Positions 23,191-56,959 of a stretch of DNA of 64,000 nt are shown one piece after another. Under the pieces are notes generated by a model. That model was given only the letters and a program-made list of their open reading frames with translations. It was not told the origin of the DNA and did not search any database. The translations under genes were made by a program, and so were the position numbers. Source of the stretch: Berberis thunbergii (Eukaryota > Streptophyta > Magnoliopsida > Ranunculales > Berberidaceae); assembly GCA_003290165.1 (NCBI GenBank), contig QNQO01006987.1:62001-126000 (forward strand). Reading direction: 5' to 3'. Each line of letters starts with the position of its first letter. Position 1 is the first letter of the stretch.

Positions 23191-23199
23191 ACACCTGCT

Positions 23200-26325: not shown

Positions 26326-26789
26326 TATATTCAACCGCATGAGCATGCCAAGCTGTCTCAAGTTGAACTATTGATTATTGATGAAGCAGCTGCAATTCCA
26401 CTACTGGTCGTGAAGTCCATGCTTGGTCCTTATCTGGTCTTCCTTGCATCCACTGTAAAACGGGTAAGATCTTTATTTGGTTCAACTTTTTATTTTTTAT
26501 TTTTTATCAATTGCATGGCATGCCTTCTATCGAAAAAAGAAAAGCACATTTGTATGTTTCTTCCTCAAAACCAAAACTTGACATTTATTATTTTATTAGT
26601 TTTAACATGTTGCCTTTTGAAGATACTTCTTGAGAGTGTTTTAGATATGATGTGATTCATATTAACTATTCATTGTAATGTTTTCTTGTAGTTATGAAGG
26701 AACCGGTCGCTCCTTATCACTAAAGCTTCTGCAGCAGTTGGAAGAGCAGGGCCAGCTAGCAAAAACGAGTGTGGATGGTGCTCTTTCTG
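26326..26789 (+). pseudogene. RNA cytidine acetyltransferase (NAT10-like) fragment
   Basis: One exon (26326-26463) reads YIQPHEHAKLSQVELLIIDE and AAAIPLLVVKSMLGPYLVFL, ending LASTVKR. The next (26692-26789) reads YEGTGRSLSLKLLQQLEEQ. This is the helicase-like ATPase core of NAT10/Kre33, which makes N4-acetylcytidine in rRNA and tRNA. The DEAAAIP motif is the Walker B-like box. Both exons keep AG/GT borders. The Walker A part upstream and the GNAT acetyltransferase domain downstream are absent. The frame at 26122-26320 just upstream does not match NAT10 and may be intron. Confidence 0.88.
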
Positions 26790-27142
26790 GTAAGAAAATT
26801 GTGTTTGCTTTTCAGTTTGTCAGGTCCATAAATTATTGGGCATTGGGCTTCTCCACATCTTTTTCTCAAAGACATGTCACATCTATTTGGATAGTCTTAA
26901 TGGCTGTTGTGTACTTTGTTATTGAAACGTGGTATTTACATGTTTGGTACATGAGTAAGCACCTATTTGGATAGTCCTAATGGCTGCTGTGCACTTGGTC
27001 CATATTTAGTTGCAATGTCATGGGCATTTGTTAGGTACTTAACATTATTAGTAACGTAAAGTTGGGCATACACGTCCGTGCAATTACATTCTTATTTTCA
27101 TCGAGTATACTCAAGAACAAGATGTGGTAGAAAAGCTGATAA

Positions 27143-27353
27143 ATGTCTTTTGATTATTGTTTTTGCTCAATTCCAGGGTCACTCTGAGAGACTAAAACAT
27201 TGGATGATCAAAGCTGCATTGGTGTTCTTTTCTTTTATGTTCTGTTACGGCATTAATGTAGAATAGTTACTCCCTCTTTTTTTCTCTCCCTTGGTATTTA
27301 TGTTTATGTACATGTCATATTACTTTGCAATGTCAAATATATTGCAAAAGCAA
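27143..27353 (+). repeat. Duplicated segment, copy B
   Basis: Near-identical, shortened copy of 22170-22565 in the same orientation (22239-22427 deleted). Its right edge is immediately followed by the LINE remnant, so the LINE inserted at, or recombined with, this copy. Confidence 0.8.
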
Positions 27354-27363
27354 TAGCCTCCCA

Positions 27364-28135
27364 TGGAGTAGCTTCATTCCTTGTGAGAATGGACAGGACA
27401 TATGCTGAGTCAGTGCTGAAAATAGCCTTATTGATACAGTGTTTTCCATCAGATTAAGGGAAGCTTCGATACCATGCAGTTCGTGCATAATTACAGAGTG
27501 TCCAGGCGATGATCCTGCACATGCTGTTACGACTACACCATGTTCATCTCTTAAAACAACTCCATGGCCTTCTAGTACACCTTGAAGAGACCTATCTGTG
27601 TTGACTTTGCACTAGCCTACGTGTGGCTTGGACCAGCTACAGTAGATTGGTGCTTCCAGGCGAAATTGCACGTGTGAATTCCATGCATTGAAAAGTTGTC
27701 TATTTGCAGCTGAGTCAATTACTTCCTTTTCATTGACTGCTAATTTTAGGCGTATTTCTTCATATATGCGAGATGCTAATTCAGCAGCTATAATGTGGGT
27801 GTTTTGGTACACTCATCTGTTCCGTTTTGCCCATATATGATATATTGTGGCATTGAAAGTGAGCTTGCACAAGGTGTTCTCCATTTTGTTGCCAGCAAAG
27901 CGTCTCCTACACCAATCGGCTTCTTCCAGCCAGTTGAGAACCTGTCTATTGTAGCCCAACAGTCTCAGGAAATGATTCCAGATGAATTTCGAGTAGGTGC
28001 ACTCGAAATATAGGTGAGCAATTGATTCAACTTCACTGGAGCATAGTAGACAGAGGTCTGATGACACTGTGCCCCACTTTCTAAGTGTATCCAATGTTTT
28101 CATTGGAGTAGCTTCATTCCTTAAAAAAGAAATTT
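27364..28135 (-). pseudogene. LINE RT zinc-binding and RNase H remnant
   Basis: On the minus strand, 28,135 to 27,813 reads MKTLDTLRKWG, then DLCLLC and IAHLYFEC. This is the C-C-H-C pattern of the zf-RVT domain found after RT in plant LINEs. After an in-frame stop, 27,812-27,383 reads as linker and RNase H: VNTDRSLQGVLEGHGVVLRD with the first Asp, then HELHGIEASLNLM with the Glu. After a one-base shift comes DSAYVLSILTRNEATPW with the third Asp. RT and endonuclease are absent. A 19-bp direct repeat (TGGAGTAGCTTCATTCCTT) lies at both ends, 27,364 and 28,105. No poly(A) tail is present. Confidence 0.85.
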
Positions 28136-28424
28136 TGAAATGACTTGATGTAATACATTATCTTTATCATTCAGCTGAAATAAATGTAGTTTGATCTTGC
28201 CTTTCAAAATAAAACATATAGTCTGATCTTTATTATTTGATAGATTTTGTGACTCGATGTAATACATTATCTTATTAATTACAATATTACTTTGCCTCCA
28301 TTCATGGAAATGTTTAAGTTTGACACATTTAAATTTTTATTTTCTAGAAATAAAACTTATAAGATGTAATAAAAAGTCATTTGATAGCAAAAAAATAAAA
28401 ATAAAAAAATGGCTATGTATACTT

Positions 28425-28583
28425 ACGATAGCGTTTCAGAAACGCTATGGTAGAGTCTACGATAGCGTTTTATCGTAGACTCTACCATAACGCTATAAAA
28501 GGCCAACTTACTAAAAACGCTAGACACAACGTTTTCTAAAACGCTATGGTGTCCTACCTATTAATGGCCTTTTTTCTTGTAGT
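28425..28583. repeat. CACTA-type right terminus with sub-terminal inverted motifs and hairpin
   Basis: The motif AACGCTATGG and its complement recur five times. Two 18-bp arms (28447-28464 and 28471-28488) are perfect reverse complements around a six-base loop. The end TTCTTGTAGTG is a canonical CACTA TIR in inverse. The following bases (ATT) would be the target duplication, but the left end is not found in the window. Confidence 0.65.
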
Positions 28584-28599
28584 GATTGGTCGGACATCC

Positions 28600-29382
28600 A
28601 CTATCCTTGTGAAAGGCTGCGGGTTCGAGACTTACCAGTTAAGATTTTGTGAGTTTTTCTCCGATTATTAGGAGTACATGTGCTCCGCTGTTGATAAACC
28701 TTCGAGTATTGAATGTAGCTGCTTAAATAGACTCAACCGGAGCAAAGCAAAAACAACGATGGACCGAAGCGAAAGCAAGCTTCCATGGGAGATGAAGGCG
28801 ATGATGATATTAAGTGGCAACAATGTTGTAGTCTTTGGGCCTTGTTTGGTTAGCTCGGATATTGAATGTAGCTGCTCAAATGGACTCAACCGGAGCGAAG
28901 TGAAAACAACGATGGACTGGAGCGAAAGCAAGTCTCCATGTAAGATGGAGACGGCGATGATATTAAATGACAACAATGTTATAGCCTTCGGGCCTAGCTT
29001 AGTTAGCTCTATAGAGTCAATCATTTAGCTTTTGGGCATGAATTAATAAATAAATAAATAAATACTGTCAACCACTTTTAAGAAAAAGAAAAACTTCCAT
29101 GAGTCTTTCCTTTCTAACACCACCACCACCATCACCATCACCATCACCATTACCATCACCTATCTTAGTGGCATATTTTATCTGCTATTTGAAATCACTA
29201 CCTCTCCTTTCTAACACCATAAAATATGATGGTTGTGTTAATTACCATTGGGAGGGTAGTGTTGTTACCAAGAGAAATTGTGGTGTTACATAACAGCTAA
29301 AAGACCTCAATCGAACAGATAGATGGAAGTTAAGGGGTGATGAGAGTTTTGGGTGATTCGAGTGAAAAAAAAAACACAAGTG
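28600..29382. other. Upstream region of the rhomboid gene: tandem duplication and simple repeats
   Basis: About 800 bp separate the CACTA terminus from the rhomboid ATG. It contains two diverged copies of a 153-bp unit (from about 28,700 and 28,853; anchors ATTGAATGTAGCTGCT at 28,708 and 28,861). It also has an (AAAT)n run at about 29,045-29,063 and a CAC/CATCAC microsatellite at 29,119-29,160. A GGTTCGAGACT string at about 28,630 resembles a pol III B box. The promoter must lie here, but no convincing TATA box stands out. Confidence 0.6.
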
Positions 29383-32300
29383 ATGGGATCGGTACAACCT
29401 CCACCTCCGCCGGCTCGGCGGTTTCCGATGTGGAGGGAAGGCCTTGCTGCCCCAGCTCACCTCAACCTCAATCTCATCACCAGTGCAGCTGCTCAGCGTC
29501 TTGGCACCATCGCCCATCGCCAGTTTCGCGGTTTTATTCTCCGCTCTTCCATGTCCTTCTCCATGGTATTAGTCACTCTTCTCCCATCTTCATCCTTCTC
29601 GTTACTTACTTTCTATTTTTTGTAGCAATTTGAAATTAACAGTAGATGCTAGCTACCTAAACCCTACTACTACAACAGTTACTACTTTTGATTGATAATA
29701 TTAGATTGCTTTTATGGAATGGGTGGTCCTGATTGACTGCAAGAAATTGTTCTAGAGAGTTTTTTTGGCTTGGTTGCAAAGAATTGAATTATGTATAAAC
29801 CAGGGAATGTGAAGGGGGAAGAGACTTTAACTACCATATAAGATCAATCACAAAAAAAATACACTAGATTAGATTGATAGATCTACACTACTTTCCCGGA
29901 GAAGAACTGACTTCTCTGCAAGCCAGGCATATCATATCATCCTCAATATTTACTTTTATATTTCACATCTTCCCAACATTGATTGCTTTCAAAGTGTTTT
30001 CTTTTTCTTTGACCAATGAGCACTCCCCCTTTCCTCAGTGGCGGATCCAAGATTGTAGTGAAGGAGAGGCGAAATGGTGAGGATTGTTAGTTGAGAATAG
30101 GTGTTATCATGGGCGAAGCTAGAAAATTTTTTCCGGACTGATAATTTAACAACAAATTTATACTAACATCTACAAGTAAACACTAAAACTTTTCTACTCT
30201 GGACTGATAATTTAACAACATTTTTTCTATTAACATTTACATGTAAACACCAAAATCAAAAATATAATTCTAATTGTATTCTTCGTGAACTTCATAGTAC
30301 CATGCAAAATACATTGTACAGATTAAAATGAGTTGGGTATAATATTTTTATGCCAAACTATAGTCAAGTTGTCGATAATTTAGCAAAGGCAGACAAGCCT
30401 AATAACTAGAATACATGATTAAAATTGAATAAATAGTTAAGATAAGTATTTAAGTTTAATTTGGAAAAATCTAAAATGTGCGAACATTATAAAATCTAAT
30501 TACAAGTTTACAGAAAGGGGAGGGAGGGGTTACGAGCCAATCCAACCCCAAATTTTATATGAGTTCAATAATGATATATATTTTCATTGAGTTTTACTTT
30601 TTAATTACATTTTTTTTGTTGGTTTTATTTATAACATTGTTTGTTGTTTGGTTTCATACTACTTGCAAACAAACATGTCTTATTAAACTATAAATTCTTT
30701 CTTTTTAATGTATTCATATAGTTGCATAAAAACATTTTATGAAAAATAACATTCAGAGATACTAACAAGTAGAGAGAAGAATAAAAGTTATATATATATA
30801 TATATATATAATAATAATTTAGTTTTAATGACCAACCGCTGTACCAAAGAGAGTTAATGTGTAGTTATTGCATGAAATTTTATAATATTGTGTATGTATG
30901 TTTTATATTAATAAATTTCAGAAATGCCAATTATATTCTAATTTGTTTTTGAAAATTGAAGAGGGGCAGCTGCCCCCTGGTCGGTTGGTCCCTCTGTAGG
31001 TCCGCCACTGCTTTTCCCTTTTAGTATGATGATTTGCTACTACTAGATACCCATTTTACCATGTTAAAGTTTTCCATTTATGTGTAACTATTCTTTATTG
31101 TTCTCTTTAAAATGTTAATTTTATTTTTGATATTCTAGTTTCATTTTTCTCCTGATCAACAGGGACTCTCTCAGTTTAGTTGTGTCCCTGGACTCAAGAA
31201 TGCATGGCTGGAAAGTGCAAAGCCACTCAATGGAGTTGATTTTTTTGCATCGTCATATATTTCTTTCTCTGCCGGATGTTCATCTTGTTTATGCTTCTTT
31301 AGTAAGAAAGACACCGTGGAAAACGTTGATGATGACAAAAACTTATATATCAAGACTCCTAACAAAAAGCCATTCAATGGACGACTGTGGACTAATGTAC
31401 TCCTAGTAATTAATGTCTTGTGAGTCTCACCTTACCATCACTCCAGAATCCAGATGCTACATTTCAGTAATTTCTATGGAAGAGATGAATGCATATTTGA
31501 AACTCAAAAAGAAATAAAACTTTTACCCGTAATATATATTATTTTCCTGATATTGTAGCCTTCACCTTTAGCTATCATAAAGTTTTTATTTATTTATGTA
31601 TCTTTTAAAAGTAAATATTAATTGAAAACTAGCTAAAGTGTTACTGATGGGTATCCCATCAATTACAATGAAACCTAGGATCATGTCATACAACCAACAG
31701 GAAACCTCCCCCCACCCCGTGCACATGCTCTTTTCAGACTGCATAGTGGTTGACACCAATAAACAAGTCAAAAGTATGATATTCTTTCCTCCTTTGATTG
31801 TGACATCCAGATCCAAAGCACTGTTCCCCATGCTTGATTTATCACTTCATTGCAACGATGTTCATCCCCCTAACATCATTCAAAGTAAGAACTCCTTCCT
31901 CTTCACACTTGGAAGACATGACCGCCATTGAGGCCTCCTTAGGACCCAATGACCTCTCTACTAGCATCGATACTTTGCATCTCCAAATGCTCTCTATCAA
32001 ACCCATGCAGATATTCATTGCACTGGATTTTTTCACCCACAAATATATTTCTGTAGATTTTCAGTGAATTGTGAACTTACCCCCACCATAGATAAGTTGT
32101 TTTGCCGCCCCAAGTACATATATCTTGACATTAGAGTTCATTCAGGTACTGTTGTAGAGTATTAACATACAGTACAAATTGTGTCATTTAATACACTATT
32201 ATGTTATATGGTAAAAATATCATGTATTACACTGGCACACAAAACCGTGGACCAGTTTTCTCTTGTTTTACAGCGCATTTGCTTTCCATGTACGTGGTCC

Positions 32301-35300
32301 AGGGCTAACTAATTTCTTTTCGAGGTTCAGAATTGTTCTTTTAGGTTATGCATGATTTTCTTATACTAAAAGAACAGTCCTTTTTTTATTACTGCATCCT
32401 TCTACGTCCTTTATGGAATGTAAAATATCTCCTTTTGATGATGTACTGTGCTAGAATGTATGTTGCTCAGATTGCATCGCAGGGAAAGCTGATACTGATG
32501 GGAGCTAAGGTCAAATAGAGAAGCTCGATATCCATTTTTAGCTTTCACATATGAACATTATGGCCAGATGTAAGTAATGTTAGTTCAATATGTTTGCAGA
32601 TTAACAGCCTTATTGACAAAGGAGAGTTATGGAGGTTGGCTACCTCATCCTTTCTACATGGAAATGTCGGACATCTCATGGTCTGGTTTTACTCTTTCCC
32701 TTTTCAGTTATTATGTTGCAGCTTATTGTTGTGGGTTTATACTCTGTTTGATTCCAGGTATCCATTATTGTTTCAGGTCAATTGTTATTCTTTGGACTCT
32801 ATTGGTCCCACAATGGAAAACATCAGTGGCCCTAGAAGATTTCTTGCTATTTATTTCACTTCTGCAATTGCAAGTAACAACTCATACTCCTAATTCAATA
32901 GTTGATCATTTTCATATCTATACAAGCAACTCCAGTTCAGTATTCTGATTCAATCATTTCAAGGACATCAGGTTCTGCGACGAGTTACTGGTTTTGCAAG
33001 GCACCTGCAGTTGGTGCTTCAGGAGCCATTTTTGGATTGGTAAGCTACATTGAGTGTTCCTATACCAACAAGTATCTTTTATATCTCTTTCATGTGCAGT
33101 TCAAACAAGCAAGACTTGATAAGGAGGAACAAATTGATATTCAGAAGCTATGTAGTTAAATCGTTAATTAGACCCTAATCGGTTCAGAAGCGATATGAGA
33201 TTTATCGAGATTAATTAGAATTAATTGGCCTACATTTTATACACATATTTTCTCTATTCTTTTTTTTAATTAATATATATTGAAGTAGTAGTCATCACAT
33301 ACCACATTTAAAGCAAATTATAACAAAATTAAAAATTCAATGTTAGATAAAGGTGTATTTCCATATTCTTTAGCTTACCTTGTTATTTTCATTTGGTTTT
33401 TTTCTCTCTTCTTATATGTATATACACCTTTTCGCACACTTGCTATTGCCCTAGGGGTTAGAGTATTCATGAGGTTAAGTCAAAATTAGGAAAAATATGT
33501 TATCTTGTGTATTTATGACATTTACCGTAAATCTATTAATCGGTGAGTTTTGAAAGCGAATAATCGGAAAATTGGCAAGAAATCACCGATTACTCGGGCT
33601 AGAGATTGTCGAAACGATTAATTCAAAACTCGTAATGCTCTACTAGTGAAAAGAGATTAATCAGAGATTTAATAACACAGTTCATAAATGAAAAATGTGA
33701 TACGGCAAGAATACTAAGTGACATCATTGCCCTCATATGGCATTGAGTTTAGGTTTGGGCAATTTTTAGAGGGGTGGGCAAACTTACTTGAGAAAAGGGA
33801 GACTCTTAGAACATCCACAGTAAGCTTACATGTGAGCATTGGTGTGCACACCCAAGCACACACTAAGCCCATCAGTGTTCAAATTTGAACACTTTGCTCA
33901 TTATTGTTTGCGTTGACACTCTGCTAGCAGAGTGTGTATAGCGAACACACTATACGCTATCTGAGAAGGCACAAGTCTGGCCCGACCAAATAAAAAAAAA
34001 AGAGGGATTGGTGCAAAATTTAACTGGCACACTTTCCAATGCTATCTCAAATAACAAGGCACAATCTAAGATGGCGCACGAGCAATGACAAATGTCAGTG
34101 AAAAAACTTTATACACACAAATGGGTATTAAAATAAAAATACCATTCTTAACCCTTCTTATATGGATGCTCTTAACACATGTAAAAGAATACAAAGGCTC
34201 CAAACATTTAAGATATTTAACATCATAAACAAACTTTTCAAGATCCTAGGCCTAAATACAATTCCACACACAAGCAATTTCATCCCACAAGCCTTTTAAG
34301 GCCTGCTCCGTGGGAAAAGCTAGTTAACAATCTACAAAACTCTTCAGAGATCATTCATTTTTTGTAGGTCTATATGTGATCAATTTGCCCAATGAGATTT
34401 TGTCAGTTCACGATACAAAAGTCGGCAGCCTGTTCTTGCATGGCAAAGTTTGTGCATATAGGAAGCTCACAAAGTTGTAAATTTAGTCCCTTGATTCACT
34501 ATTTCCGATGTAATAAGACTGGAATAGCCCTTAATTGCTCATTCCTGCACAAAAAGGAAAATTTTCCTTGTGTATGCAAATCAGTTGCATTGTATGTCAA
34601 ACCCAAAATTCATGGAAACTACTGAGTGCATATATAAGTGTTCTAAAAATCGGCCTAAGCGGCCGCCTAGGCGCTTGAAGGTGGAAAACCGCCCAGATTA
34701 ATGGCTGGGCGGGCAGTCTGGGCGGTTCTGGCCAGTCTGGGCGGGTCTAGGCGGGATCTACGCGGGGTCTAGGCAGTCTGGGCGATTTTTTATTTTTTTT
34801 ATTTTTTATTTTTTAATAAGGCTGATTGTGTTCTTATTTTATTTTTCTTTCCTATTTTTTAGAAATAAACTATTTAATTGTTTTTTATTCAGTATATGTC
34901 TAAATGTAGCAAAGGATGATTACTTAATGAAATTCTCAAAGGATCTGCCGGTACCAATTTACTAATGTAGATTTTATCAAACATAACTAAGGTTATTCAT
35001 GCAATTTGAAGAAAAATAAGAGTACACAAATTCAAATTTATATAAAATACCCATCATGACCAACTTTAGTCATTTGAGTTTTAATAAATTTTGTTCACGA
35101 TTGTTAATTTTTCATGTTTTTAAATTTTGCATATGTATATTGGCATTAAATTGGATGTAATTAATAAGGTATTATGCTTAACTTTTGTAAATTATTAAAA
35201 TTATAATACAAAACCTAAGACCGCCTAGGCGCCGCTTAGGCACCCGCCTAGTCCCCTGGGCGCTAGGCACCTGCTCGCTGCCCGCCCAGCGTCTAGCAAT

Positions 35301-44116: not shown

Positions 44117-44819
44117 TCAATCCACCGTGCCGAAAATGCCGACAGCAAGGAAACTGTTCTGGAAGGTGTGTCCCTCACCGTTCAGATTTTTCCCTCAGAG
44201 AAAGCTTTGAGAAGATTGTTCAGGAACCCACCGTTCAAATTCGCTTCATCACCTCAAAAACCCCCGATCAGAAACTCATCATTCAGAAAAACCATTATTC
44301 GATCAGGAAAACACCGGTAAGAAAAACCTCCATTTAGATCTGCATCAGCAACCCGCTTCAAATACCTTTGCTCAGAAACCGCCGTTGAGATCTGCTTCAG
44401 AAACCCACCTTTCAGAAACCCCACTCAAGAGGAAACAACACTTCAGAAACCACCGTTTAGGTCTGCATCCGAAACCCCTTTTCAGAAACCCTCAAGAGGA
44501 AACCCCATTCATGCAGAACTTAAGAAGAACCATTGTAGCAGAAGAAACCCAACTCAAATAGACCCATGGCTGATCACATTCACGCAGACCCGCCGTTCAC
44601 CTTCACGAAGACCCCCATGAGCTTCTCACGCATACCCGTTGTTCACCCTCACGAAAACTCGTCGTTCACCCTCGCGCATATATACCTTCACAACCAGTCA
44701 AATCAAACACATTCAGAGTGACAAAACATTCAAGAATAAAAAAATGCTAACATGAAAATATTAATGTAGCCATCTGTCACTACACCAAAAGAGCCATTTA
44801 GCTACGCCGAGTTGCCCAC

Positions 44820-45240
44820 GGTTCTAAACCGTTGGTGCATTTGCCACGGCCAGAAACCGTAGCTATACGTACCAACGGCCTAAAACCGTGGGTAATAAAG
44901 ACACTTGCCACGGTTTCAAACCGTTGCTATAGTTGGCACGGCTAACAACCGTGGCTAATAATAGCAACGGCTAAGGACTGTGAGAAGTATTAGCAACGGC
45001 TTCAAACCATTGCAAAAAAAAAAATTAGCAACGGCTCAAAACCGTTGCAAAAAAAATTTAGCAACGGTTTTAAACCGTGGCTAAGCTTAGCAACGGCTAG
45101 AAACCGTTGCAACCAAAAACTTTAGCAACGGTTCTAAACCGTGGCTATATCTAGCAACGGCTCAAAACCGTTGCAAAAAAAAATTTAGCAACGGTTTTAA
45201 ACCGTGGCTAGCTTTAGTGATGGCTCAAAACCGTGGCTAC
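44820..45240. repeat. Left sub-terminal repeat array of the CACTA element
   Basis: About fourteen copies of a palindromic unit close to CAACGGTTTTAAACCGTTG, spaced 25-40 bp, in both GTGG and GTTGC ended variants. In En/Spm such sub-terminal motifs are TNPA binding sites. The inverted copies could also fold into long hairpins when transcribed. Confidence 0.88.
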
Positions 45241-45560
45241 ATGAAAAGCTGAAAAAAAATTGGGCGGGCTTCCCTCCTTTTGGCGCTCGACCTTCCCTCC
45301 TTTCGACTTCACAATTTCACCAAATCGACTCTCCCTCCCTCGACCTGCTTCCCTCCATCGACCTGCTCCCTCCCTCGAATCGACTTCCCCCCTGCTCCTT
45401 CTCCTTCCCTGCTCCCTCCCTCGACTCGACTTCCCCCCTGCTCCTTCTCCTTCCCTGCTCCCTCCCTCGACTCCCCTCCTCCCCTCCTTCCCTGCTCCCT
45501 CCTTCCCTCAACTTCCCTCGACTTCAAAATCGATCAACCACTGCATTATATATAGGTACT
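45241..45560 (+). repeat. CT-rich tract with a ~57-bp tandem repeat
   Basis: TCCCTCCCTCGACT and CCCCCCTGCTCCTTCTCC blocks repeat about every 57 bp (near 45,378 and 45,435), then degrade. The Pro/Ser/Leu frames here are by-products. In CACTA elements this position is between the left sub-terminal array and the promoter/TNPA leader. Confidence 0.75.
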
Positions 45561-47408
45561 CTCTCTCTCTTTTATTTATTATGAAATTAGGGTTCATCAG
45601 GGTTGTGTTTTATTTAGGATGAAATTAGGGTTCGATGATTTTTTTTTTTTTACAATGAGCATTTTGTTCGATAATTAGTATTCTTGTTAAACTCCCCTCA
45701 TTGCTCAATACAAGATTTCCAACTGTGTTTTGATGGTATTTTGTTGCTTCCAGAATTCTTGTATTGTTTTCAATTGTGAATGCCAAACCAATAATCCCCT
45801 GCTATAATATATGCTGCCCATGTAAGTAAGTACAACTTATGCATAAAAAACTATTGATTCCTTTTGATTATATCCTATTTTAACGTTTCAAAACTGTGTT
45901 TTATAGTCTTGATGTAGCTAGGTTCCAGAGGGATGCTACCTTTTTTTAATGATCAAGTCACTATAGCATAATTTTTTTTTCCGGCATTGAGCGCAATAGA
46001 TTCAATAGATGATTTGATTAAAATTAGTTTTTCATATAGGTTAGTGTGAGAGGTAAGATAGCACGAAAAGCTAATGATGCTTATTGTTTGGTCCCTTGCT
46101 TAAAAGATCTAAATCCCTAGCCTTCTATTTGAATTAACTATGATATTATATTATGTTGAGGTTTAATTAAGAAAAATTAGATGATGGATGGATGTTTTTC
46201 TTGGTGAATGAAAATAGGTACAACTAATAAAACAAGTATGATATGATTAAAGTCTATGATGAATATAGAAATGTACAAGTGAGAGTTAGGGGGAATGCAA
46301 GTACGGATAAGTTTGGGTGTTAGTGCAGGCTGCAGGGTCAGGTACCTTGCAATGGTGACTTGACCACTCACCCATCCATTCATCCCAACGGTCTCCTATT
46401 ATTATTCCTACCCTAGCTTATAGCCTATATGCACCAATGAAACCAAACAAAAAAAAAGATCGAAAAAATCGTCGGTGATATATTTTGAATTTTGATGCTG
46501 TAGAGGAAGGACTGTTGATCAGTGGTGGTGGGGGTTGGTCCCCTCCTCTCCTCTCCTCTCCTATCCATCTCTCAACATCTTATCTGCGTACAGGAAAAGT
46601 AGTCTCTTTTTCTGGCTCACTCGCTCACTATTCTTATTTCTTTCATTGCTTTCTTGTTTACATCATGACATATGTAGTATCTATCTTTATTTTCTTTCTT
46701 TAGTTATAGAGAGAGACTTTTTGGTTTTTGGTTGGTTGCATAAATAATTTATCACTCCATCGTCTTTATTCTTTCATCAACCAAAAAAGCAATGAAGAGA
46801 GCAATGAGAGAGACTGGACACTAAACATGACTCAACCCCATCATCATTTATACAACTTTATTAGTCTGATATATAGTATGGGCTGGTGGATCCCACCCCC
46901 ACCACAAAACAAAACGGCGCACTTGTCCACGTACTCACAATTATAAGTCATAACATGCACCATTATCTGTCTACACAAAACCAAAACCCAACCAGACCCA
47001 TCCATAACTTGCTGCTGCTCTTCTTGTTATTGAATATCTAGTCATTTTATGAGTTTTGTTTTCTCAGAAGAAGATACAAATCCAATATTGCTTGAGAAAG
47101 AAAATATATGTGATGCTTGCGAATTTTTACTTTTCCTCTTCACTTGGTGCTTTAGAAGTGAAACACCCTGATTACAGCATTCCACATAATATTGTCTGAA
47201 GGAATAAAAGGCCACCAAATGTATATATGTATTATAAGGTTGCGAGTAGGAATTGGAGTTTATGCTTGATGAAGTTTTGTATGGTATATGCTATATGAAG
47301 TTTATGCTTGGAGTTTTTCAATACACGTTCGAAAATATATGGTATATGCTTGATGAAGTTCTGTATCTTCAATAATCCACTGTTCTTGACTTGAATGTGT
47401 ATTGCCAG
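45561..47408. other. CACTA interior without a recognised gene
   Basis: Mostly AT-rich. A CTCCT-rich run occurs at about 46,535-46,565 (TCTCCTCTCCTCTCC). Short frames match nothing I know. It may hold captured introns or upstream DNA. Confidence 0.45.
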
Positions 47409-47502
47409 GTTACAAAACATCCAGAAATTCATCCACTCTGACCTTGGTACTGAGAGTGCACTGCTTGATTCTCCAATTCTGCAGAAACTTCATCACAAAA
47501 AG
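47409..47502 (+). pseudogene. Captured exon of unidentified origin
   Basis: A 94-bp exon-like block is bounded by CCAG and AAG|GTCAGT. One frame is fully open and reads LQNIQKFIHSDLGTESALL followed by DSPILQKLHHKK, which looks like real protein. I do not recognise the source. Its form matches the other captured exons in this element. Confidence 0.45.
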
Positions 47503-47879
47503 GTCAGTTCATAACATAATGTAATTAGCTAGGTTTGTACTCATCAGGAGATGTGTGTGATCTTCAATTATTATTATTGTTATTATTTTCTTCTTCAAGA
47601 TTGGTAGCTAGGTTGCTTAACTTAATTAACTGAGTTAGGAGATGAGTTGGGTAATTTGATGAACGAGTATATACACAAATAGTATGATAAATAATGCGAG
47701 TCTTAGTAGTAATGGAGTGTGGGTAGGTAATAGTAGGATTATTAATACGAGTTAATGTGATTAGCTTGATTTCATTATAATGAGAGTCAATTAACTCTTA
47801 AGGTTTGTTATCATGTTAAGATCCACGTTATTATCTAATTTAGCTTGATGTGCTTAAGATTTTTATTAGTCCTAAATTG

Positions 47880-48215
47880 TAATTTTTTTTATGCCCACAC
47901 TCCATTGTGCGACTCTTAGTAGTAATGGAGTGTGCGAGTCTTAGTAATGAGTTTATACAATATCTAAGTAATGAGTTTATACAATTGTGATTTAAAAATC
48001 GAGTCTTAGTAAGACTTGCATTATGTAACGAGTAAGAGTTTATCAATTTTTAGTAAGAGTTTATCAATTTAGTAATGAGTTTTAGTAAGAGTTTATCAAT
48101 TTTTAGTAAGACTTGCATTACTACAATTTAGTATAAACTGAATCACAATTGTATAAAAAACGATTACTACTAAATTGTGATAAGTAATGAGTTTATACAA
48201 TATCTAAGCATTAGT
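47880..48215. repeat. Locally repeated AT-rich block
   Basis: Units such as AATGAGTTTATACAATATCT, CGAGTCTTAGTAGTAATGG and AAGAGTTTATCAATTTTTAG recur several times in both orientations. The pattern suggests repeated slippage or nested small insertions; no coding. Confidence 0.65.
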
Positions 48216-48575
48216 CCAAAGCTGAACTTCGTCTATTTTACTTTATTACCGTAACAAAATATTTCATCGCTCTGTATAAGTATGTTTCATTGTGGCTATA
48301 GTTCAATAAATTAGGATATGCTAGCAATGGTTAAATTTATAGGTTTCTTTTTGGTTCCCCATAGTAGAGAAAGGAATACCTTTCCCTGCAAAACTAAGAA
48401 AAGGCATGATCATTTTCAGTTTCACCTTTTGTTCATTGTTTTTCCGATGTGTTTTCTTAGAATCAAACACAACCTTTTTTTATTTATGGAAATTATCTAT
48501 AAATGTGGTGTATATAGTTGATTATTATTTCTTTTTGTTTGATAATGGTTAATATCTATAATGTCATTGATAGAA

Positions 48576-50303
48576 ATGGATAGTACTCGCGACAATCTCT
48601 CCACCATTAATGTCACTAGATCTACAAATGATGACATTGAAGTTAAACAGACCATACAGTTCAACATCCACGGTTTAGCAGTTGGACCTGGTGCTAGAAA
48701 TTTCAATAAAAACATTGGAAAGCTTGTTGAAACCCTTGTGCCCATCAAATTCAAGGGTTGGCACCATGTTACTGACAACTACAAAGAGGATGTGTGGAAT
48801 GGCCTAAGGGTGAGATTTTACATCATTGATTTTCATAATGTCTTATTTTATTTTCAACTTATATCTCAATGGTTTATTTGCAGCGTGAATACGACATCCC
48901 AAATTATGTGAAAAAGAGTGTGCAATTGAAAATGCCTGAATATTATAGAAGGTTCAAGGCAGATCTTAGGAAGAATTATTTGGATAAGTATCCTACCATT
49001 GAGGAACAAGAGAAGCATGTTCCAAATGGTGTAAGAGAGGAGGATTGGAAGGAGTTTGTTCGCTATGAGAGCACCCCTGAAGCGAAGGCAATTAGAGCCC
49101 AAAATGCAAATAACAAAAGGCTTCAAAGTATGTATGGGGGGGTGGCCAAAAGAGTACTGCAGAAGTAGAGTATGAAATGGTAATTGAGTTTCTAGCTACT
49201 AGTACAATATTATATACCATTTAACTATATAGGCTGAGACTAATCTTTCAAGTATATAGGTTCAGAAGAACCCTGATGGTGAACCAGTCACACGCACTGA
49301 CATATGGATTGCATGTCACACTGGAAAGGATGGAAAACCTATGCATGGTTCTGAACAATATATGGTATGTGCCCAATGATGTCTTTTATACCCAATTCTT
49401 AATTTACTTTGTAGTTGTTTGAATATTATTTGTGTCCTGCTTTATTTTATTTTTTCATTCTTTTGAAGGAACAAGTTAAAGCAAAAAAAGTTGCCTTGCA
49501 AGAATCTTCAACTCAGGGTACCACTGACCTCACTATTGATGATGATCCTCTAAGCCAAGTCTTTGGCCAAGAAGCGAGGGGACGTACTCGTTGTGTTGGA
49601 ACCACTGTCTCTAAAAGGAAGTATGATGCTGTACTTCCCGCTCGTTCATTGCTATTGGAAAAAACATTGGAAGAAAAAAAGGGAAGAAAAATATAATAGA
49701 TTGGAAGAAAATGTTAGATGGATACGAGAGAGACTTGAAAGTGGAACTTATGTAATACCAGCAACAAGTGAGGGAGTACAAGGAGTTGTTCAAATAACTG
49801 AAGATACATCGTCATCTCGTGCACAATCGACAAGGCAACCAGAAATCCATTACCTCCATCTCCATTACCATCATCTCCATTACCTCCATCTCCATTACCA
49901 TCATCTTCTCAAGGTGTTGCGAGGTTTCCTTCTCCAAGCAATCCTGTTCCTTCAGTGTCAAGGATTTACAAAGTTTGTGATTGGGAAAGGAATGTCGTTG
50001 CGATAGGAATAGAGGTTGTAGATCCAAACCATCAATTCTCTTGCGCTTGTCATGGATCATTGAACCCCGCAACAGAGATCAGACTTTCCTTATGCTTCAA
50101 ATACAAGAGTGGGGTGAAACTTTACAAAAGTGTTCCAAAAGGAGACATGATGGGGGATTTGGACATTGGTGATTTCTTCGTATGGTGTAAAACTCATGTG
50201 GAACTTGATGATTGCCATCGACTATGTTGGAAGCAATGTAATGGTGGCAGCAAAAGAGGAGCTTAGTAAAATACAGTACGGGCACGTGATTGTTCATTTT
50301 AAG
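48576..50303 (+). pseudogene. CACTA TNPA-like protein (Transposase_24 / En-Spm family)
   Basis: Exons by GT-AG borders are: 48576-48809 (to GWHHVTDNYKEDVWNGLR), 48884-49179 (REYDIPNYVKKSV, KHVPNGVREEDWKEFVRYES), 49260-49364 (NPDGEPVTRTDIWIACHTGK), and 49469 to about 50,303. The last has a Glu/Lys-rich part, a Pro/Ser run and an end block KVCDWERNVVAIGIEVVDP. This order is that of plant Ptta/En-Spm proteins, whose TNPA member binds sub-terminal motifs. Breaks: a seven-G run near 49,135 is one base off frame. A seven-A run near 49,675 shifts the frame, and a compensating shift near 49,845 restores it; a further shift occurs near 50,230. Alternatively some of these are homopolymer assembly errors. 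Confidence 0.85.
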
Positions 50304-50420
50304 GTAACTAGCTGAATTCCCTTTAACAATTAGCAATTTAGCAGTATTGGTTGGGCTACAAGCACAAATGCTTTTATGTTCATTCAGTACCTTATGTGTT
50401 ACTTTTGCTTTGGATTTCAG

Positions 50421-50490
50421 AGATGGTGATCTTCCTCTCATTGTCGCCATTGATTTGCAGCCCATGGCTCCCAATTATGCATTTAGATAA
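50421..50490 (+). pseudogene. TRM7-like (FtsJ) tRNA 2'-O-methyltransferase fragment
   Basis: Directly after an acceptor-like TTTCAG the frame reads RDGDLPLIVAIDLQPMAP, a well-conserved stretch of plant/yeast TRM7-type FtsJ enzymes, where IVAIDLQPMAPI leads into the SAM-binding core. The match then stops (NYAFR and a stop codon), so only about 18 codons were captured or survive. TRM7 methylates tRNA anticodon-loop riboses. Confidence 0.7.
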
Positions 50491-50803
50491 GGAATTGATG
50501 TTAGGATACTTCAAATAAAAATAATTAATATTTTGTGTTCTTGTATTAAAACTGTGCAGTATTTTACTAGTTTTGGGATTTATTGTCATAGGAATTCAAA
50601 ATTTTACCAACTTTCATCGACAATTGAGATCTGTTAAGAAGTTTTTTTTATTTTTCTTAGCTGCTATTGATCCATTGCCCATCATCAGAATGTATGGTCA
50701 TATCTGTATTCATGTTATTAAGGCATCGCTGCAATTATTATGCTGTTGTAGTAGTATTTGATATGTCTTTATACTGAAAGCTCTTTGATGATTTACCTCA
50801 CAG

Positions 50804-50989
50804 GTAGAACTGATAAAGCCAGCTGTGGTGGGTACAATTAACGTCTTACGAGCATGTTCTGTGGCAAAAGTAAAGAGGGTCGTTGTTGTATCATCTGTTA
50901 CTGCTGTTCTGCAGAACCCAAACTGGCCAAAAGATGAAGTCATGGATGAATCCTGTTGGTCTGATAAAGAATGTTGCAGGATAAATGAG
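50804..50989 (+). pseudogene. Cinnamoyl-CoA reductase-like exon (captured)
   Basis: A 62-codon exon, fully open and phase-neutral, between CTCACAG and GAG|GTAAGT. It reads [37 protein letters not shown] and [19 protein letters not shown]. This is the exon of CCR-like extended short-chain reductases that holds the VVVSS motif, whose Ser is part of the catalytic triad, and the NPNWP block. The NAD(P)-binding exon before and the YxxxK exon after are absent. The lack of any stop suggests recent capture or little decay. Confidence 0.88.
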
Positions 50990-50999
50990 GTAAGTAGTT

Positions 51000-52636
51000 A
51001 GCTTAAGCAGGTTTAGGAAAGATTTTACTTCTTTAACTGCCTATGGTGAATAATTTGATAAATAACTGCATATGAAATTTGATATTGACTTGTCTCATTA
51101 AACATATTTATCTATGCTTTTAGCAACTTGTGGTGATGAGAGTTGTTCATTCTGTTTTGTATTTGGAGATATTTTGCTTTCCATGTATTGAAAAGGGTTT
51201 CAAGTTATTTTAGCCAATCACTTGTTCATGTTGTTAATTTGCAAGAAATAGTCAATTTAGTGCTTGTTATTCATATGGTCAAGTTTAGTGCTCGGTGTGG
51301 CACTGTTACCATTCAAACTATAAGTTTGATTTCTTTGATCTAGATTCTAACATTCTAGAACGGGATGAATAAGCTCAAGTCAAGTCATGAGCACGTGAGG
51401 CCTTTTTCTTTCTTTCTTTCACATTATTTGATCTTACTATTGTTCTAGAAGAATATTACAAGTTGTTGTTTTCTTTTCATAAAGTTATTTATTATAAACT
51501 TTCAAAAAAAATTTATTATAATTTCATTTATAAGAAATAATAGATTTTATAGGTGTTGGAATCAAATTATCCATGCAAGGTATAGTTCACCACTCCCCAC
51601 AAATGGTTAAAAAGTCAGTCTACTACTACACACATTCCTCTGATGTCACCAGTTGTTTCTCATACTTATAAAGTCATTTGTGTTGTCAACCAACTACACA
51701 CAATTCTTACACAGTCCGAAGCCTTCCTTAGAACAACTCCAGTAACTAAGTGGATCTGTATGGCTATTTGCATGACTTATTTTCAGGACTAAATTCACAG
51801 TGGTATGAAAGAAATATCCTTAACGATTTTTCAGAATTGATCATCGACGCATAAAAGCAGCTAATAGTATTTCCAACATTTTTATTTTTTTTCAAATTAA
51901 GATTGAAACCCATGTAGTTTCCTAAACCTGTAGAATGGGACTTTTAGAGCACCTTAGCCAACTCCCTCCGTCCCTCAACTAAACTAAGTGCTACATTTAC
52001 TTCAATGCCATGCCTTCGAATATTTGTAACTTGTAAGATCTGCTTTGAGTAATTTTCTTTACATGCCTACTATGAGTAGTTTTCTTTACATGTCTTGACG
52101 CACTCTAAATATCACTCTTTTTTATTTTGCCAATGGGCACAAGCTCAGCGGGGAAGACTTGTGTATGATAGTTATTAGTCCTCGAACGATAAGTATGGTA
52201 TATACGTATTGGTACCCAAAAGGTATATATCACAGGTATATATTATAATTACATTATATCGCATGTACCAGTCGATACATATTAGTATATCGTATGTACC
52301 GGCCGGTACGTGACATGTATCGTACCGATTGGACTAGCTTTTATAAAATTTAAAAAATAAAATTCGCAGTTTTCACTTTTAACCATTACTTATCTCTTAT
52401 CTACCCCCGTTAGGTTGAAAAAAAACACTTCATCTTCTCTATGAGAGCGTTTTTTTAGAGAAAAGCCCAAAAAAGCTCTTATGTAGTGAAATCATCATAT
52501 CTCTCTCCACACAACTTGGAATCACAATCATCAAAATTATCAAATCTTTTCTATGAGAGTATTTTTTTTAGGAGCTCCTAGGACGTGTGTTAGTTTCTTC
52601 TCTACTATTTGTGTTGGTGTCATTGTGTGGATTTGC
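51000..52636. other. CACTA interior, no gene; small palindrome
   Basis: AT-rich DNA with no protein-like frame. Around 52,190-52,330 GTAC-rich sequence includes a perfect 14-bp palindrome GTACCGGCCGGTAC (52296-52309), possibly the core of an old MITE. Confidence 0.4.
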
Positions 52637-52915
52637 AATGCCTGCTCCTAATAGCGATGATGATGCAACAAGAAAATATTGTTAAAAAGATATTGATGGC
52701 AGAAATAAATTTAAGTGAAAAACATTGAAAATGGTGAATGGAGGCATAATAAGAATGAAACACCATGTTGTTAGAAACCAGAAAGATAACGCTCCATGTA
52801 TAAAGGAACCCAAAGATATCAAGATATTAATGCATTCTTTTAAGATGGTTAATGATTTGAAAATAAAAAGAAAAGAAAGAAAGATCGGTGCACCATGTAC
52901 TAAGGTAATGTATGA
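52637..52915 (+). pseudogene. hAT transposase BED zinc-finger fragment
   Basis: The frame reads MPAPNSDDDATRKYC, a stop, KDIDGRNKFK, a stop, then VNGGIIRMKHHVVRNQKDNA and HSFKMVNDLKIKRKERK. This parallels the N-terminal BED-finger region of plant hAT transposases (GRxxxxC..C...VNGGIxRLKHHL). The Cys pair position is degraded and stops interrupt it. The DUF659 and dimerisation domains are absent. It is a nested fragment inside the CACTA element. Confidence 0.65.
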
Positions 52916-53183
52916 ATGTATGTAAGTGATATTTTTGGGACTACTTTCTTATATATATTGTTTTTTTCAATGTCTTACGATATGATACAACTTAAATTTG
53001 GGTTTTCGATATACGATAAAATAATCATTTTGATAACTATGGATGTTAAGCCTTGCCAAATGCATTATAAATCCACTTTTCTTATAACTTCCTCATTCTT
53101 GCCTCTTCATGCGGTTGGGACTTATTTATGCACACAATTACTATATGTCATTTGATTGAATCCACTTCCGGATGTTTCTTTAG

Positions 53184-54477
53184 CTGCTGGCAGTCAAGAA
53201 ACTGGACAATGCTGCCTCCAGGCGACAGAATGATGAAGAGTTTCTTGAGCTGGTGCGGAGTATCTCGAAGCTTCGACATGTCAATATTGTTGAGCTTGTG
53301 GGTTACTGTTCTGAGCATGGACAGAGGCTGATCTTCTATGAATACTGCAGTGATGGGACACTTTATGATGCACTGCACACAGATGACGAACTAAATAAGC
53401 AACTATCATGGAATGCTCGCATCAAAATAGCCCTTGGAGCTGCAAGAGCATTAGAGTGAGTGTAACGTTTAGTTTATTATTTCAAGAACTCTTTATTCAC
53501 TTCAATTATGTTTTTAGAACTTTGATGGAGCAGGGGTAAGGCGCTTTTGTTTAAGTCATTTTTATTGTTTGAATATTATTATTATACCTTCTCAAGAAAA
53601 AAATGGGGATAATGTGTGGGAGACATAAAAAAATGGGGATAATGTGTGGGAGACATAAAAAAATGGGCTCCAAGTTCTAGTTAGAGACATCAAAACCCTT
53701 GTTTGGCAGGGGGGCACTGTGTGGGAAGTGTTTCAGGGTGTTGCATGTTTGATTGGGAGAGTTATTTACTCTTATTTACTCTGTAATAGGAATGTTGCTT
53801 GTTTTGGGCAGTTTTTCTCCCCTTTTGTTAGTAATGTGATTTGCTCAGTCACTTTGTCTCTTTATTATCAATATATTGCTGTGCTTTGATTGATCCAGGA
53901 AAAAAAAACGAAAAAAGGGGGACAAAGCACTTCGTAGAAGTAGGGAATTTCATTCTAGACTTGAACCACTGAATGTAGAATTCTGACCTACTTGCATATT
54001 TTGGCATGTAGAGGCCAAAAGTTTTCTCTTTTGATTCCAAATTATGTGATGAGCATTTTCTCAATGCAAAGTAAATAGAGAGCTATGTTTTTTTTCATTT
54101 ACTTATTTATTTTTAATGTGCTGAAGGTATCTACATGAAACTTGTGAACCACCTGTTATGCATCGCAATTTCAAGTCTGCCAATGTTCTCCTCGATGATG
54201 GACTGCAAGTACGCATCTCAGATTGTGGTGCTGAATACTACAGAATTACCAACGCACTGGTATGTAATTGGATCTATCTATGACAGATAATGAGAATAAT
54301 TGTTGATAACTATTATTACAATAAGAAAAAAGATGGTAATACCTTTGCATCTCTTTGATAGGACTTGGAGGACAAGCTACACCCAGGTGGTCCATTCGAT
54401 CCATCTCTTTTATTTGTAGGACTTTTTTCTCCCTATTTTAAGTCACTACCATGGTTTTGGCTATCTTTTTATTGAGC
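53184..54477 (+). pseudogene. In-frame chimera: STRUBBELIG-receptor-family kinase piece fused to LHCB5 piece
   Basis: Exon 1 (53184-53455) reads LLAVKKLDNAASRRQND, ISKLRHVNIVELVGYCSEHG and SWNARIKIALGAARALE, the kinase N-lobe of a STRUBBELIG-receptor-family protein. Exon 2 (54127-54259) continues in phase with YLHETCEPPVMHRNFKSANV, LLDDGLQVRISDCG. It then switches without a break to AEYYRITNAL of the minor light-harvesting protein LHCB5 (CP26). Exon 3 (from 54362) continues in frame with DLEDKLHPGGPFDP, again LHCB5, then unrelated codons to a stop at about 54,477. About 173 codons are open across the predicted splices. HRNFK and SDCG at the usual HRD/DFG sites are normal for this atypical kinase family. 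The product could neither phosphorylate nor bind pigment. A spliced transcript would encode the chimera. Confidence 0.85.
53595..53912 (+). mobile_element. Retroposon 3'-tail-like insertion in the chimera's first intron
   Basis: A 35-bp unit (ATGGGGATAATGTGTGGGAG) is repeated two and a half times at about 53,600-53,665. It is followed by non-coding TTG/TTT-rich sequence ending in a run of A at about 53,901-53,909. This resembles the 3' end of a LINE or similar retroposon. No coding or target duplication was found. Confidence 0.35.
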
Positions 54478-54479
54478 AG

Positions 54480-54985
54480 TTCTAAATGTCGAGGAAACAG
54501 ATGAGGAAATGGGCGAGGAAAGCGACGTGGCGGGGTGGAGAAAATTTTTTCTGCTGCTGTTTCATGCGGGGGCGGACTGGCGTACTTGCTATTGCTGCGC
54601 TCTGTTGATGTTGCTGATGCTGATCCTGATGCTGCTGATGATGCTGCTGTTGCTGTTGCTGAGCGGCGTTGATGTTGTTGCTGCTGCTGCTACGCTTTGG
54701 CGCGTTACTGCTGCTGCTGCCCTGCTTTGCTGTTGCTGTTTGGTTTGCTGCTGCTGTCTATCGCAGCATTGACATGCTGAGAAGTAGCGACATGCGGTTG
54801 GAGCGTGTGTATGCCGGTTGATCTGGGCAGTCCGGTGTAACTTGATTTGTCGCATAAATGCCCGTGTGCTGCGTGTTCTACGGTTGAGAGACTGACTGTG
54901 AGTTGATTTAAGTTGATTGCTTTAAGTTTTTTATTTTCATTGTTTTTAGTTTTTGCCTTGGCTTTCAAAAAAAAAAAAAAGGACA
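54480..54985 (+). mobile_element. CTG-rich block ending in poly(A), possible truncated retroposon
   Basis: GC-rich, with repeated CTGCTG/TTGCTG triplets at about 54,550-54,770, a tail of T-rich sequence, and a run of fourteen A at about 54,968-54,981. The Leu/Ala/Cys-rich frames are triplet by-products. Position between the LHCB5 and transportin pieces suggests an insertion. Confidence 0.35.
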
Positions 54986-55232
54986 TGCCCTGGATTTTGA
55001 TGTCCAACCAGGAAATGATTTTTTTTGCTGATTTAATTTTTATATGTTTCATGCTAGATATTATTGGTTGGATTGGATTTTAATCTTCATCTGACAACAG
55101 GATGATGATCACTTGCGTAGTTATTTTCAAAATGGTTTCTAATTGCATGTTTTGTCGACAAGTTCTTAGTTTTCAAAATGGTTTTCAAACTTTTTGTCGA
55201 CAAGTTCTCAATTTTAAATTTATAAATGCCAG

Positions 55233-55915
55233 GAAGCTGCTGAGGAGTTGGCTCCACGGTTGGAAGTCATTTTGCAGCATCTCTTGTGTGTTTTTGGGCA
55301 ATATCAGGTTTGTTTTATATAAGTGCTCTTTCACTTTACATTTTGGCTATTATGTCAAATATCTGACACTTGCTAATCCCTTTTTGTCTAAACTCTTTTA
55401 GAAACGAAACCTTCGGATTGTATATAAATGATGCTAACGAAACCTTCAGGTATCATGTAATGTGTTTCATCTTGTTGGCTACCAGTATTGAACAAAAATA
55501 GTAAGTTAACTTGTTCTCTATGATGATGAATTACAACCAAGATATCTTGAGATTTTAATGCCTCTAGTGATTGCAAAGTGGCAGCAGCTTTCGAATGCCA
55601 ACAAAGATCTTTTTCCCTTGCTCGACTGTTTTACATCTATAGCACAGGTATCTTTTCCCTTGCCTGAGTCATTAAAAAATTTCTATTTGATTAAACAGCT
55701 GTCAGGCTCATGTCGAACTAATACTTTTAACTTATAGTTCTACACGACTTATTTTTTTTTAAACTTTTGGAAGTCTCTTCTAGACCGAATGAAACAATAG
55801 AGTTTTTATACTCTTGTTCTATCTGTTTCAGGCATTAGGTTCTGGGTTTGCTCAGTTTGCAGAACCTGTGTTTCAGATGTGCATAAATATCATCCAGACT
55901 CAGCAATTGGCAAAG
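55233..55915 (+). pseudogene. Transportin-1 (importin beta-2) fragment, four exons
   Basis: Exons: 55233-55307 (EAAEELAPRLEVILQHLLCV, FGQYQ); 55402-55449 (RNLRIVYK then stop); about 55552-55647 ([31 protein letters not shown]); and 55832-55915 ([28 protein letters not shown]). They are consecutive HEAT-repeat exons of plant transportin-1, which imports PY-NLS cargo into the nucleus. The borders CAG|GT, TTTTAG|, TTTCAG| and AAG|GT are kept. The second exon is corrupted by stops and a deletion that removes the codons following the conserved VYD. Roughly 90 of about 890 residues remain. Other captured genes in the element are of unrelated function. Confidence 0.88.
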
Positions 55916-56289
55916 GTTTCTACATACTTTTGTTGTGTATATCACTCCTTCAGCTTCTGCAGATCTGCATTGTGTTTTAGTTCTTATCCATTTATTGGCC
56001 TAACATGGAGGTGTTTTGAAAGGGACATCACCCAGTTGTATTAGGAATAATTATGTATTTGATTAAGTGATCATGTTGGAGAGGTTTGGAGCAATCACGA
56101 TGACCAATTGCTTGTAATATGTTGAATTATTATTGATAATTAATTTGTTTAATTCAGGCTGAATTAGTTCATCCAATTTATGATTCTTTTGTCTCATTTG
56201 TGTGGACTATGTGTAAGGACTGATTTTGCAGGTGCCACGGCTGTGATTTTGCTGCAGCAGCAAAAAATAAAATATAATTTTTTTTTCGA

Positions 56290-56945
56290 TTATATTAACT
56301 TGCAACGGTTTAAAACCGTTGCAACAAAACATATTTTTTTTTTGAATTTTGTTTTAATTGCCAACGGCTTAAAACCGTGGTTCCATATTGCCACGGCTAA
56401 AAACCGTGGGCATTATTTCTCATTTGCTACGGCTAGAAACCGTGGCCATGGTTAGCCACGGCCTAAAACCGTTGCTAGCACATTTGCCACTGTTTAATTC
56501 ACACTATTTAGCCACGATTTTTAACCGTTGCCAAGTTTAGCCACGGCTAAAAACTGTTGCTACTCTTAGCCACGGTATAAAACCGTTGCTAATATATGGA
56601 CTTTGTCACGGCTTAAAACCGTATCTAATTTTGCAACGGCTATAAACCGTTGCTATCTTGTTAGACACGGTTTATAACCGTTGCTAATATCTACACTTTG
56701 TAACGGCCTGAAACCGTTGCTACTTTGCCACGGCTTAGAACCGTTGCTATTGTTATTGCAACGGTTTATAACCGTTGCTAATTTCTGAAAATAACGCCCC
56801 CCATCCAAACATAAAACCGTTGCTACAATGTTTAGCAACGGTTTATAGCCGTTACAAATGATTTTGCGACGCCCCTGTAGTCCACGGCTCTTAGCCCTGG
56901 CAATGGCTTACGCCCACGGTCTAGAACCGTTGCTAATGGGGGTTT
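56290..56945. repeat. Right sub-terminal repeat array of the CACTA element
   Basis: About twenty copies of the same palindromic CAACGG...CCGTTG unit as at the left end (for example CAACGGTTTATAACCGTTG), spaced 20-45 bp, ending 10-20 bp before the TIR. The match to the left array shows both ends belong to one element. Confidence 0.9.
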
Positions 56946-56959
56946 TTGGTGTAGTGTGT

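Follow-up and report, generated by a model that had tools for sequence, protein, structure and literature searches.

The window analysed here, a stretch of 64,000 nucleotides of the Berberis thunbergii assembly (contig QNQO01006987.1, positions 62,001 to 126,000), contains at 44778-56956 a repeated element with the ends of a CACTA (En/Spm) transposon and, between them, exons that resemble parts of several unrelated host genes. The features of the element, in window positions, are listed below (TIR, terminal inverted repeat; TSD, target site duplication; ORF, open reading frame; basis of each assignment in brackets).

44775..44777, TSD TGT, left (sequence)
44778..44790, + strand, left TIR CACTACACCAAAA (sequence; pair scan)
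44810..45242, left subterminal repeat array, 12 copies of a 31-nt unit (repeat tool; motif scan)
47410..47502, + strand, open exon-like stretch with splice-like borders (ORF reading; copy comparison)
48576..50266, + strand, TNPA-like gene remnant of several exons (weak PF03004 match; similarity to the elements C261 and C736)
50422..50472, + strand, fragment of 17 residues, presumably of a TRM7/FTSJ-like exon (tentative name)
50804..50989, + strand, CCR-like reductase exon (Pfam; PDB)
53184..53456, + strand, receptor-like kinase exon (Pfam; genome matches)
54125..54260, + strand, second kinase exon, in a phase compatible with the first (Pfam; frame check)
54362..54403, + strand, LHCB5/CP26 exon fragment, 14 residues (E 1.8e-4)
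54512..54981, + strand, CTG-rich segment with a run of A at its end (common to other subfamilies)
55214..55944, + strand, transportin segment with introns, exons 55233-55308, 55512-55648 and 55833-55915 (alignment to the C1595 gene)
near 55402-55440, + strand, destroyed transportin exon (identical in 13 of 13 copies)
56299..56936, right subterminal repeat array, 13 copies of a 27-nt unit (repeat tool; motif scan)
56944..56956, - strand, right TIR (complement of the left TIR)
56957..56959, TSD TGT, right (sequence)

The sequence CACTACACCAAAA at 44778-44790 and the complement of 56944-56956 are identical at 13 of 13 bp and begin with CACTA, like the TIRs of that superfamily, and the TGT on both sides forms a 3-bp TSD of the CACTA (En/Spm) type. 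A scan of the window for CACTA/TAGTG pairs 0.5-30 kb apart yielded six pairs with at least nine TIR bases in common: 13 in the 44778/56956 pair and 9-10 in the remaining five, a matching 3-bp TSD being found only at 44778/56956. Subterminal repeat arrays, a trait of CACTA elements, are present at both ends and are built on ACGG..CCGT units; within the element this motif (at most one mismatch) is confined to the two arrays, with none between. An earlier reading of the window, made from the letters alone (the sequence-only reading), had described an intact-ended CACTA element of about 12.2 kb with 13-bp TIRs, TGT/TGT and paired subterminal arrays, and this description was borne out. The TNP2/TNPD transposase (PF02992) was not found in a six-frame Pfam scan of the element (45250-56240), as expected of a non-autonomous copy.

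The genome searched was a 2.24-Gb assembly, and copy numbers obtained from it are lower bounds. The left 201 bp of the element matched at least 40 places at 94-100% (40 of 5,039 candidates scored); thus the check proposed by the sequence-only reading, a genome search with an element terminus, did recover other copies. The kinase segment was found in at least 36 places at 94-100% (33 complete or almost complete, two partial, one cut by a contig end), and four further places carried a 510-bp kinase piece alone. In 23 of the 36 kinase contigs a left-end match lay 7.1-10.8 kb away in the fitting orientation. Ten copies were fetched; together with the window copy they make up subfamily S1. They were chosen through the left-end match, so the occurrence of the same 13-bp left TIR in all ten is partly preselected; the TIR is also present in C261 and C736, members of related subfamilies. 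Most of the interior is kept in all ten fetched copies. Deletions measure 45-588 bp in C38 and C5217 and are smaller in C1227, C838 and C9157, and 48256-50831, which covers TNPA, TRM7 and the beginning of the CCR exon, is missing from C1688. The latter copy also has an insertion of 4,981 bp at window position 45837. As the cargo is present in 10 of the 10 fetched copies (C1688 lacks TRM7 and some of CCR), the proposal that the window copy itself had captured the genes did not stand.

Four pairs of copies share their left flanks at 98.5-99.9% (the window copy and C245, C194 and C6636, C38 and C5217, C838 and C9157) and each pair appears to be a single site in two haplotypes; the 11 copies therefore represent seven sites. 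The TSDs are TGT/TGT at the window site, TTA/TTA in C194, GCT/GCT in C38, CAT/CAT in C9157 and C838 (one site), CAT/CAT in C1688, GGT/GGT in C1227 and TAG/TAG in C1603. Hence a matching 3-bp TSD occurs in at least one copy at each of the seven S1 sites, and the TSD is unaltered in eight of the 11 copies. In the others, the right flank of C5217 reads GAT against GCT in its site partner, the right end of C6636 is short of bases, and C245 has lost its right end and flank (about 340 bp), its left end being intact. Erosion of right ends beside intact left ends was also seen in C736, whose left end, unlike those of C245 and C6636, had not been selected for; outside C245 the erosion amounts to one to a few bases. 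In the alignment of the 11 copies, Kimura two-parameter (K2P) distances between S1 sites were 1.05-1.94% (mean 1.47%), and those within same-site pairs 0.30-1.00%. The fairly recent insertion that the sequence-only reading took from the clean ends is a loose wording: the same site in C245 is also filled, with a divergence of 0.30% and an eroded right end. Two outcomes named as refuting the element, that its termini belong to different elements or that its interior is syntenic host DNA in related species, do not apply, since both ends are joined to the same interior, in near-identical copies, at six other sites.

The identity of the cargo is established to different degrees. The TNPA-like exons match PF03004 weakly (E 0.0083, 16.7 bits, under the cut-off of 28.7); the region 48489-49117 is 94.7% identical to C261, and the TNPA region is 93.6-96.5% identical to C736. 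Among the copies the lengths and frames of these exons vary through indels (ratio of nonsynonymous to synonymous polymorphism, pN/pS, 1.44; P 0.86). The CCR-like exon matches kavalactone reductase (5e-21) and CCR (1.5e-13) in the PDB, the kinase exon has a Pfam match of 4.5e-13, the LHCB5/CP26 match aligns 14 residues at E 1.8e-4, and transportin was recognized in the PDB at 7.9e-6. Part of the kinase region (53696-54205) recurs in other subfamilies. For the fragment at 50422-50472, which we take to be a TRM7/FTSJ-like exon, a PDB search gave no match, and the exon at 47410-47502 had neither a PDB match nor, in a protein search, a homologue at E 10. Of the at least five captured genes counted by the sequence-only reading, four are thus upheld by domain or structure matches, the TRM7 name being tentative; within the kinases we presume the SRF type. 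Host coding DNA from other loci, which distinguishes Pack-CACTA elements, is present in the element according to these domain and PDB matches and to the transportin donor described below.

A gene at C1595 aligns continuously with 55214-55944, through exons and introns, and the match to this donor stops at 55944. With indel-rich stretches masked, the donor differs from 13 element copies (11 of S1, C261 and C736) by 2.6-3.8%, and a second transportin gene, C10172, by 8.3-10.0%. At 16 of 658 sites all 13 element copies are set apart from C1595; with C10172 as comparison, ten of these changed on the element side and six on the donor side. One donor exon is replaced by an identical short scrambled stretch in all 13 element copies, and the filler in this destroyed exon resembles its neighbour. 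Because exons and introns both match C1595 and the destroyed exon is identical in 13 of 13 copies, the alignments indicate that the transportin piece entered in a single capture from DNA and that the loss of its exon preceded the amplification. In this segment the mean distance is 3.16% between the donor and S1 and 1.13% between S1 sites; assuming even rates, the capture would be roughly 2.8 times older than the spread of S1. Thus, of the proposed alignment of captured exons to their parental genes, transportin provides a positive case, with a donor and a capture ordered relative to the spread; it is the only donor found.

C261 is a 17,479-bp element (within G000:C261:741600-763599) with the same TIR at both ends and the TSD ACT/ACT. 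It contains TNP2 domains: PF02992 (6.9e-86), PF13963 (Transpos_assoc, 1.6e-17), DUF4218 and DUF4216, read as several ORFs in an intron-free reading. Among the matches listed, the named relatives of its TNP2 are all plant proteins, the best being from Curcuma longa (50%). C261 shares with the window element the TRM7 and CCR module (50346-51265 of the window, 98.8%), the 510-bp kinase piece (99.0%) and the transportin-bearing right end, and its cargo also includes a chaperonin exon. Two more pieces, RdRP (5.4e-6) and LIM_bind (1.8e-5), were detected by Pfam in sense frames, above the cut-offs; in PDB searches the former matched RDR2 weakly (E 0.14) and the latter gave no match. C736 shares TNPA and the right end with the window element and has other contents; its TSD would be CCA only if the right TIR had lost its last base. 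The 510-bp kinase piece, with its poly-A end, was considered as a retroposon, but this was dropped, as C261 carries it inside a CACTA element. Another putative gene-fragment chimera lies at C5217:41800-43900, where the same piece stands between PHD-finger-like exons (Pfam 6.6e-6, under the cut-off) and a SEC14/CRAL-TRIO-like sequence (3.4e-16).

The pieces recur in varying company. The transportin segment was found at 97-100% in all 40 scored places (of 1,054 candidates), 29 of them in contigs outside the list of kinase matches, and one transportin exon had at least 184 matches (150 of 1,616 candidates scored), a few of them in real genes. Of the 40 places scored for the TRM7 and CCR segment, 22 have all or almost all of it; the remaining 18 end sharply at 51265, and 11 of these also start at 50427. 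Therefore the set of captured genes noted in the sequence-only reading is present in the window element but is not a fixed set, since its modules recur elsewhere with other partners. Between C261 and the window element TNPA differs at 26 of 628 sites (4.14%) and the cargo at 23 of 2,687 (0.86%; Fisher 7e-8); for C736 the values are 17 of 628 (2.71%) and, in the common cargo, nine of 1,260 (0.71%; Fisher 0.001). The S1 copies C1603 and C38 lack this contrast (P 0.25 and 0.17). As the segments were picked after inspection of the data, the P values are indicative. The greater closeness of common cargo than of TNPA in C261 suggests that cargo was exchanged between subfamilies after their TNPA regions had split.

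With a probability of about 0.92 we regard the window unit as a non-autonomous member of the plant CACTA (En/Spm) superfamily whose ancestor took up pieces of host genes and then multiplied by transposition, because TIRs and TSDs were found at seven sites, the cargo is present in the copies, transportin has a donor, its destroyed exon is identical in 13 of 13 copies, and a relative carries TNP2. The ancestor would have gained DNA from host genes unrelated to one another, at least in the case of transportin as intron-containing genomic DNA, and the loaded ancestor would then have been amplified, the TNP2-type transposase of relatives such as C261 probably moving the element in trans. Several points weigh against this reading. 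Single capture is apparent for transportin only, with one donor found; the fetched copies are biased to intact left ends; in three of the four same-site pairs one member has a changed right end; and some single-base indels are perhaps assembly errors. Moreover, rejoined flanks were rejected as evidence of empty sites, because shifted controls gave equally long ORFs in several cases; Pfam domains (gag, 5.7e-5, just under the cut-off; F-box, 4.4e-7) did not extend across the junction but lay to one side of it, two of the four joins lacked any domain, and none of the fetched loci spans a junction. The F-box domain is that of the C736 flanks, and the C736 element may be inserted in an F-box gene. 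The copies might instead be segmental or assembly duplicates that arose without transposition, as the left flanks common to four pairs could suggest; but seven sites are left after merging the pairs, no other left flanks matched each other over the 800 bp compared, a matching 3-bp TSD is present at every site in one copy or more and C261 adds another, which makes this explanation almost negligible.

As to how the gene pieces entered, repair of breaks inside the element or aberrant excision of neighbouring copies could be involved. In the tandem model described for Pack-CACTA (PMC13317346, PMC8903248), aberrant excision removes the ends at which two neighbouring elements face each other, and the remaining outer ends then move the intervening DNA as a unit. 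Right-end erosion, a starting state for this, is seen in C245, C6636 and C736, but no internal subterminal motif was found in the window element (at most one mismatch), C261 or C736 (no mismatches), and short pieces from several unrelated genes would require repeated fusions; we therefore consider this route possible but rather unlikely. Break repair in which synthesis switches template to unrelated genes, and subsequently to sister elements, is a moderately probable route, proposed on sequence grounds. The introns kept in the transportin cargo, the scrambled exon with filler, the divergence between subfamilies of 0.7-0.9% in cargo and 2.7-4.1% in TNPA, and the sharp module ends are consistent with it. 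To us the neighbour-like filler looks more like repair synthesis than like the product of tandem excision, but it could also come from a later deletion. Subsequently, cargo could have moved between subfamilies through recombination or template switching.

The orientation of the cargo is uniform. All matches with E up to 0.05 in the six-frame Pfam scan (45250-56240) lay on the + strand, the three minus frames being empty; the claim that the captured exons run in the sense of TNPA therefore holds for the Pfam-detected matches. All Pfam-detected cargo of the window element and C261 is in sense, and no antisense match at E 0.05 was obtained in the window interior, about 15.7 of the 17.5 kb of C261, and C736; the scanned parts of C736 had no Pfam cargo on either strand. 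Eight of eight named fragments (TRM7, CCR, kinase, LHCB5, transportin, RdRP, LIM_bind and chaperonin) are in sense (0.004 for a coin toss). For this count the ORFs of C261 and C736 were inspected visually on the sense strand alone, and short antisense pieces could have escaped Pfam. Such uniformity might be expected if the element hosted a chimeric host gene formed by exon shuffling and kept by selection. In addition, all nine scored captured exons are open in seven of 11 copies, two of which (C38 and C5217) carry an in-frame deletion of 45 bp, and captured exons have fewer gap openings (10 in 1,086 columns versus 190 in 8,717 of the other interior); homopolymers and repeats in the non-coding remainder may explain the latter. 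On the other hand, pN/pS in the captured exons is 1.15 (40 N, 12 S; P 0.71), so they appear to be free of purifying selection; they are as variable as the rest of the interior (4.79% versus 4.85% variable sites), and none of the 13 copies has kept one of the transportin exons intact. A selected chimeric gene is thus very improbable. More speculatively, the cargo could be a shared pool of host-gene modules, including the RDR-type piece of C261, traded by recombination in sense orientation only across subfamilies with and without transposase. We consider this doubtful; if true, selection acting via transcripts or small RNAs would account for the uniform sense orientation.

CACTA elements are already known to capture genes (Tgm-Express1, wheat 3B, Pack-CACTA), and the window family is a well-resolved new case. 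Tgm-Express1 of soybean, a 5.7-kb element in one mutant allele, contains exons and introns of five unrelated host genes (PMC1947982). The window element resembles it as a CACTA element with pieces of unrelated genes, but belongs to a 12.2-kb family at multiple sites, with modules common to subfamilies, one of them with transposase. On wheat chromosome 3B, 140 capture events involving 145 genes, hence mostly one gene per event, were described for the families Vincent and TAT; one exonuclease fragment, present in three Vincent and seven TAT copies, was read as recent DNA exchange between families (PMC4290129). In contrast to these captures, the window element carries several genes and a donor could be aligned through introns. 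Pack-CACTA and Pack-TYPE elements are non-autonomous, with TIRs, a TSD and coding DNA, in some cases from multiple loci (PMC8903248, PMC13317346); the window element shares these traits, but it has kept remains of a TNPA-like gene, and a relative that encodes transposase carries some of its cargo. Host-gene fragments also lie inside CACTA elements of Chenopodium alongside transposase-associated domains, there upstream of the coding part (PMC8978399), whereas the cargo described here lies between TNPA and the right end. Literature searches for the TIR sequence and for exchange found no paper. A search pairing CACTA transposons with STRUBBELIG found none, which says nothing on wider publication of the gene set; for CACTA and transportin the matches listed look unrelated by title and abstract, many being prefix matches (Cactaceae, transporting).

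The sequence of capture, exon loss and amplification can be reconstructed for one cargo gene within a single genome that contains the donor, a transposase-bearing relative and many near-identical copies, and the junctions make the question of how DNA transposons acquire unlinked genes testable. A 'gene' that recurs many times in an assembly of this kind may be cargo of transposons.

Elsewhere in the window, + strand ORFs at 19780-32945 resemble exons of several host genes, which we take to encode H+-ATPase, WD40, TIR1/AFB-type, NAT10-type and rhomboid proteins. A second captured-gene element at 19.8-33 kb was considered and rejected, as that region yielded neither a TIR pair nor an inverted repeat. 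A TRM7 exon different from that of the element accounted for 92 of the 107 matches listed in one genome search (e.g., G000:C1775:58296-58424), a few of them in real genes; this widespread exon is perhaps also transposon cargo.

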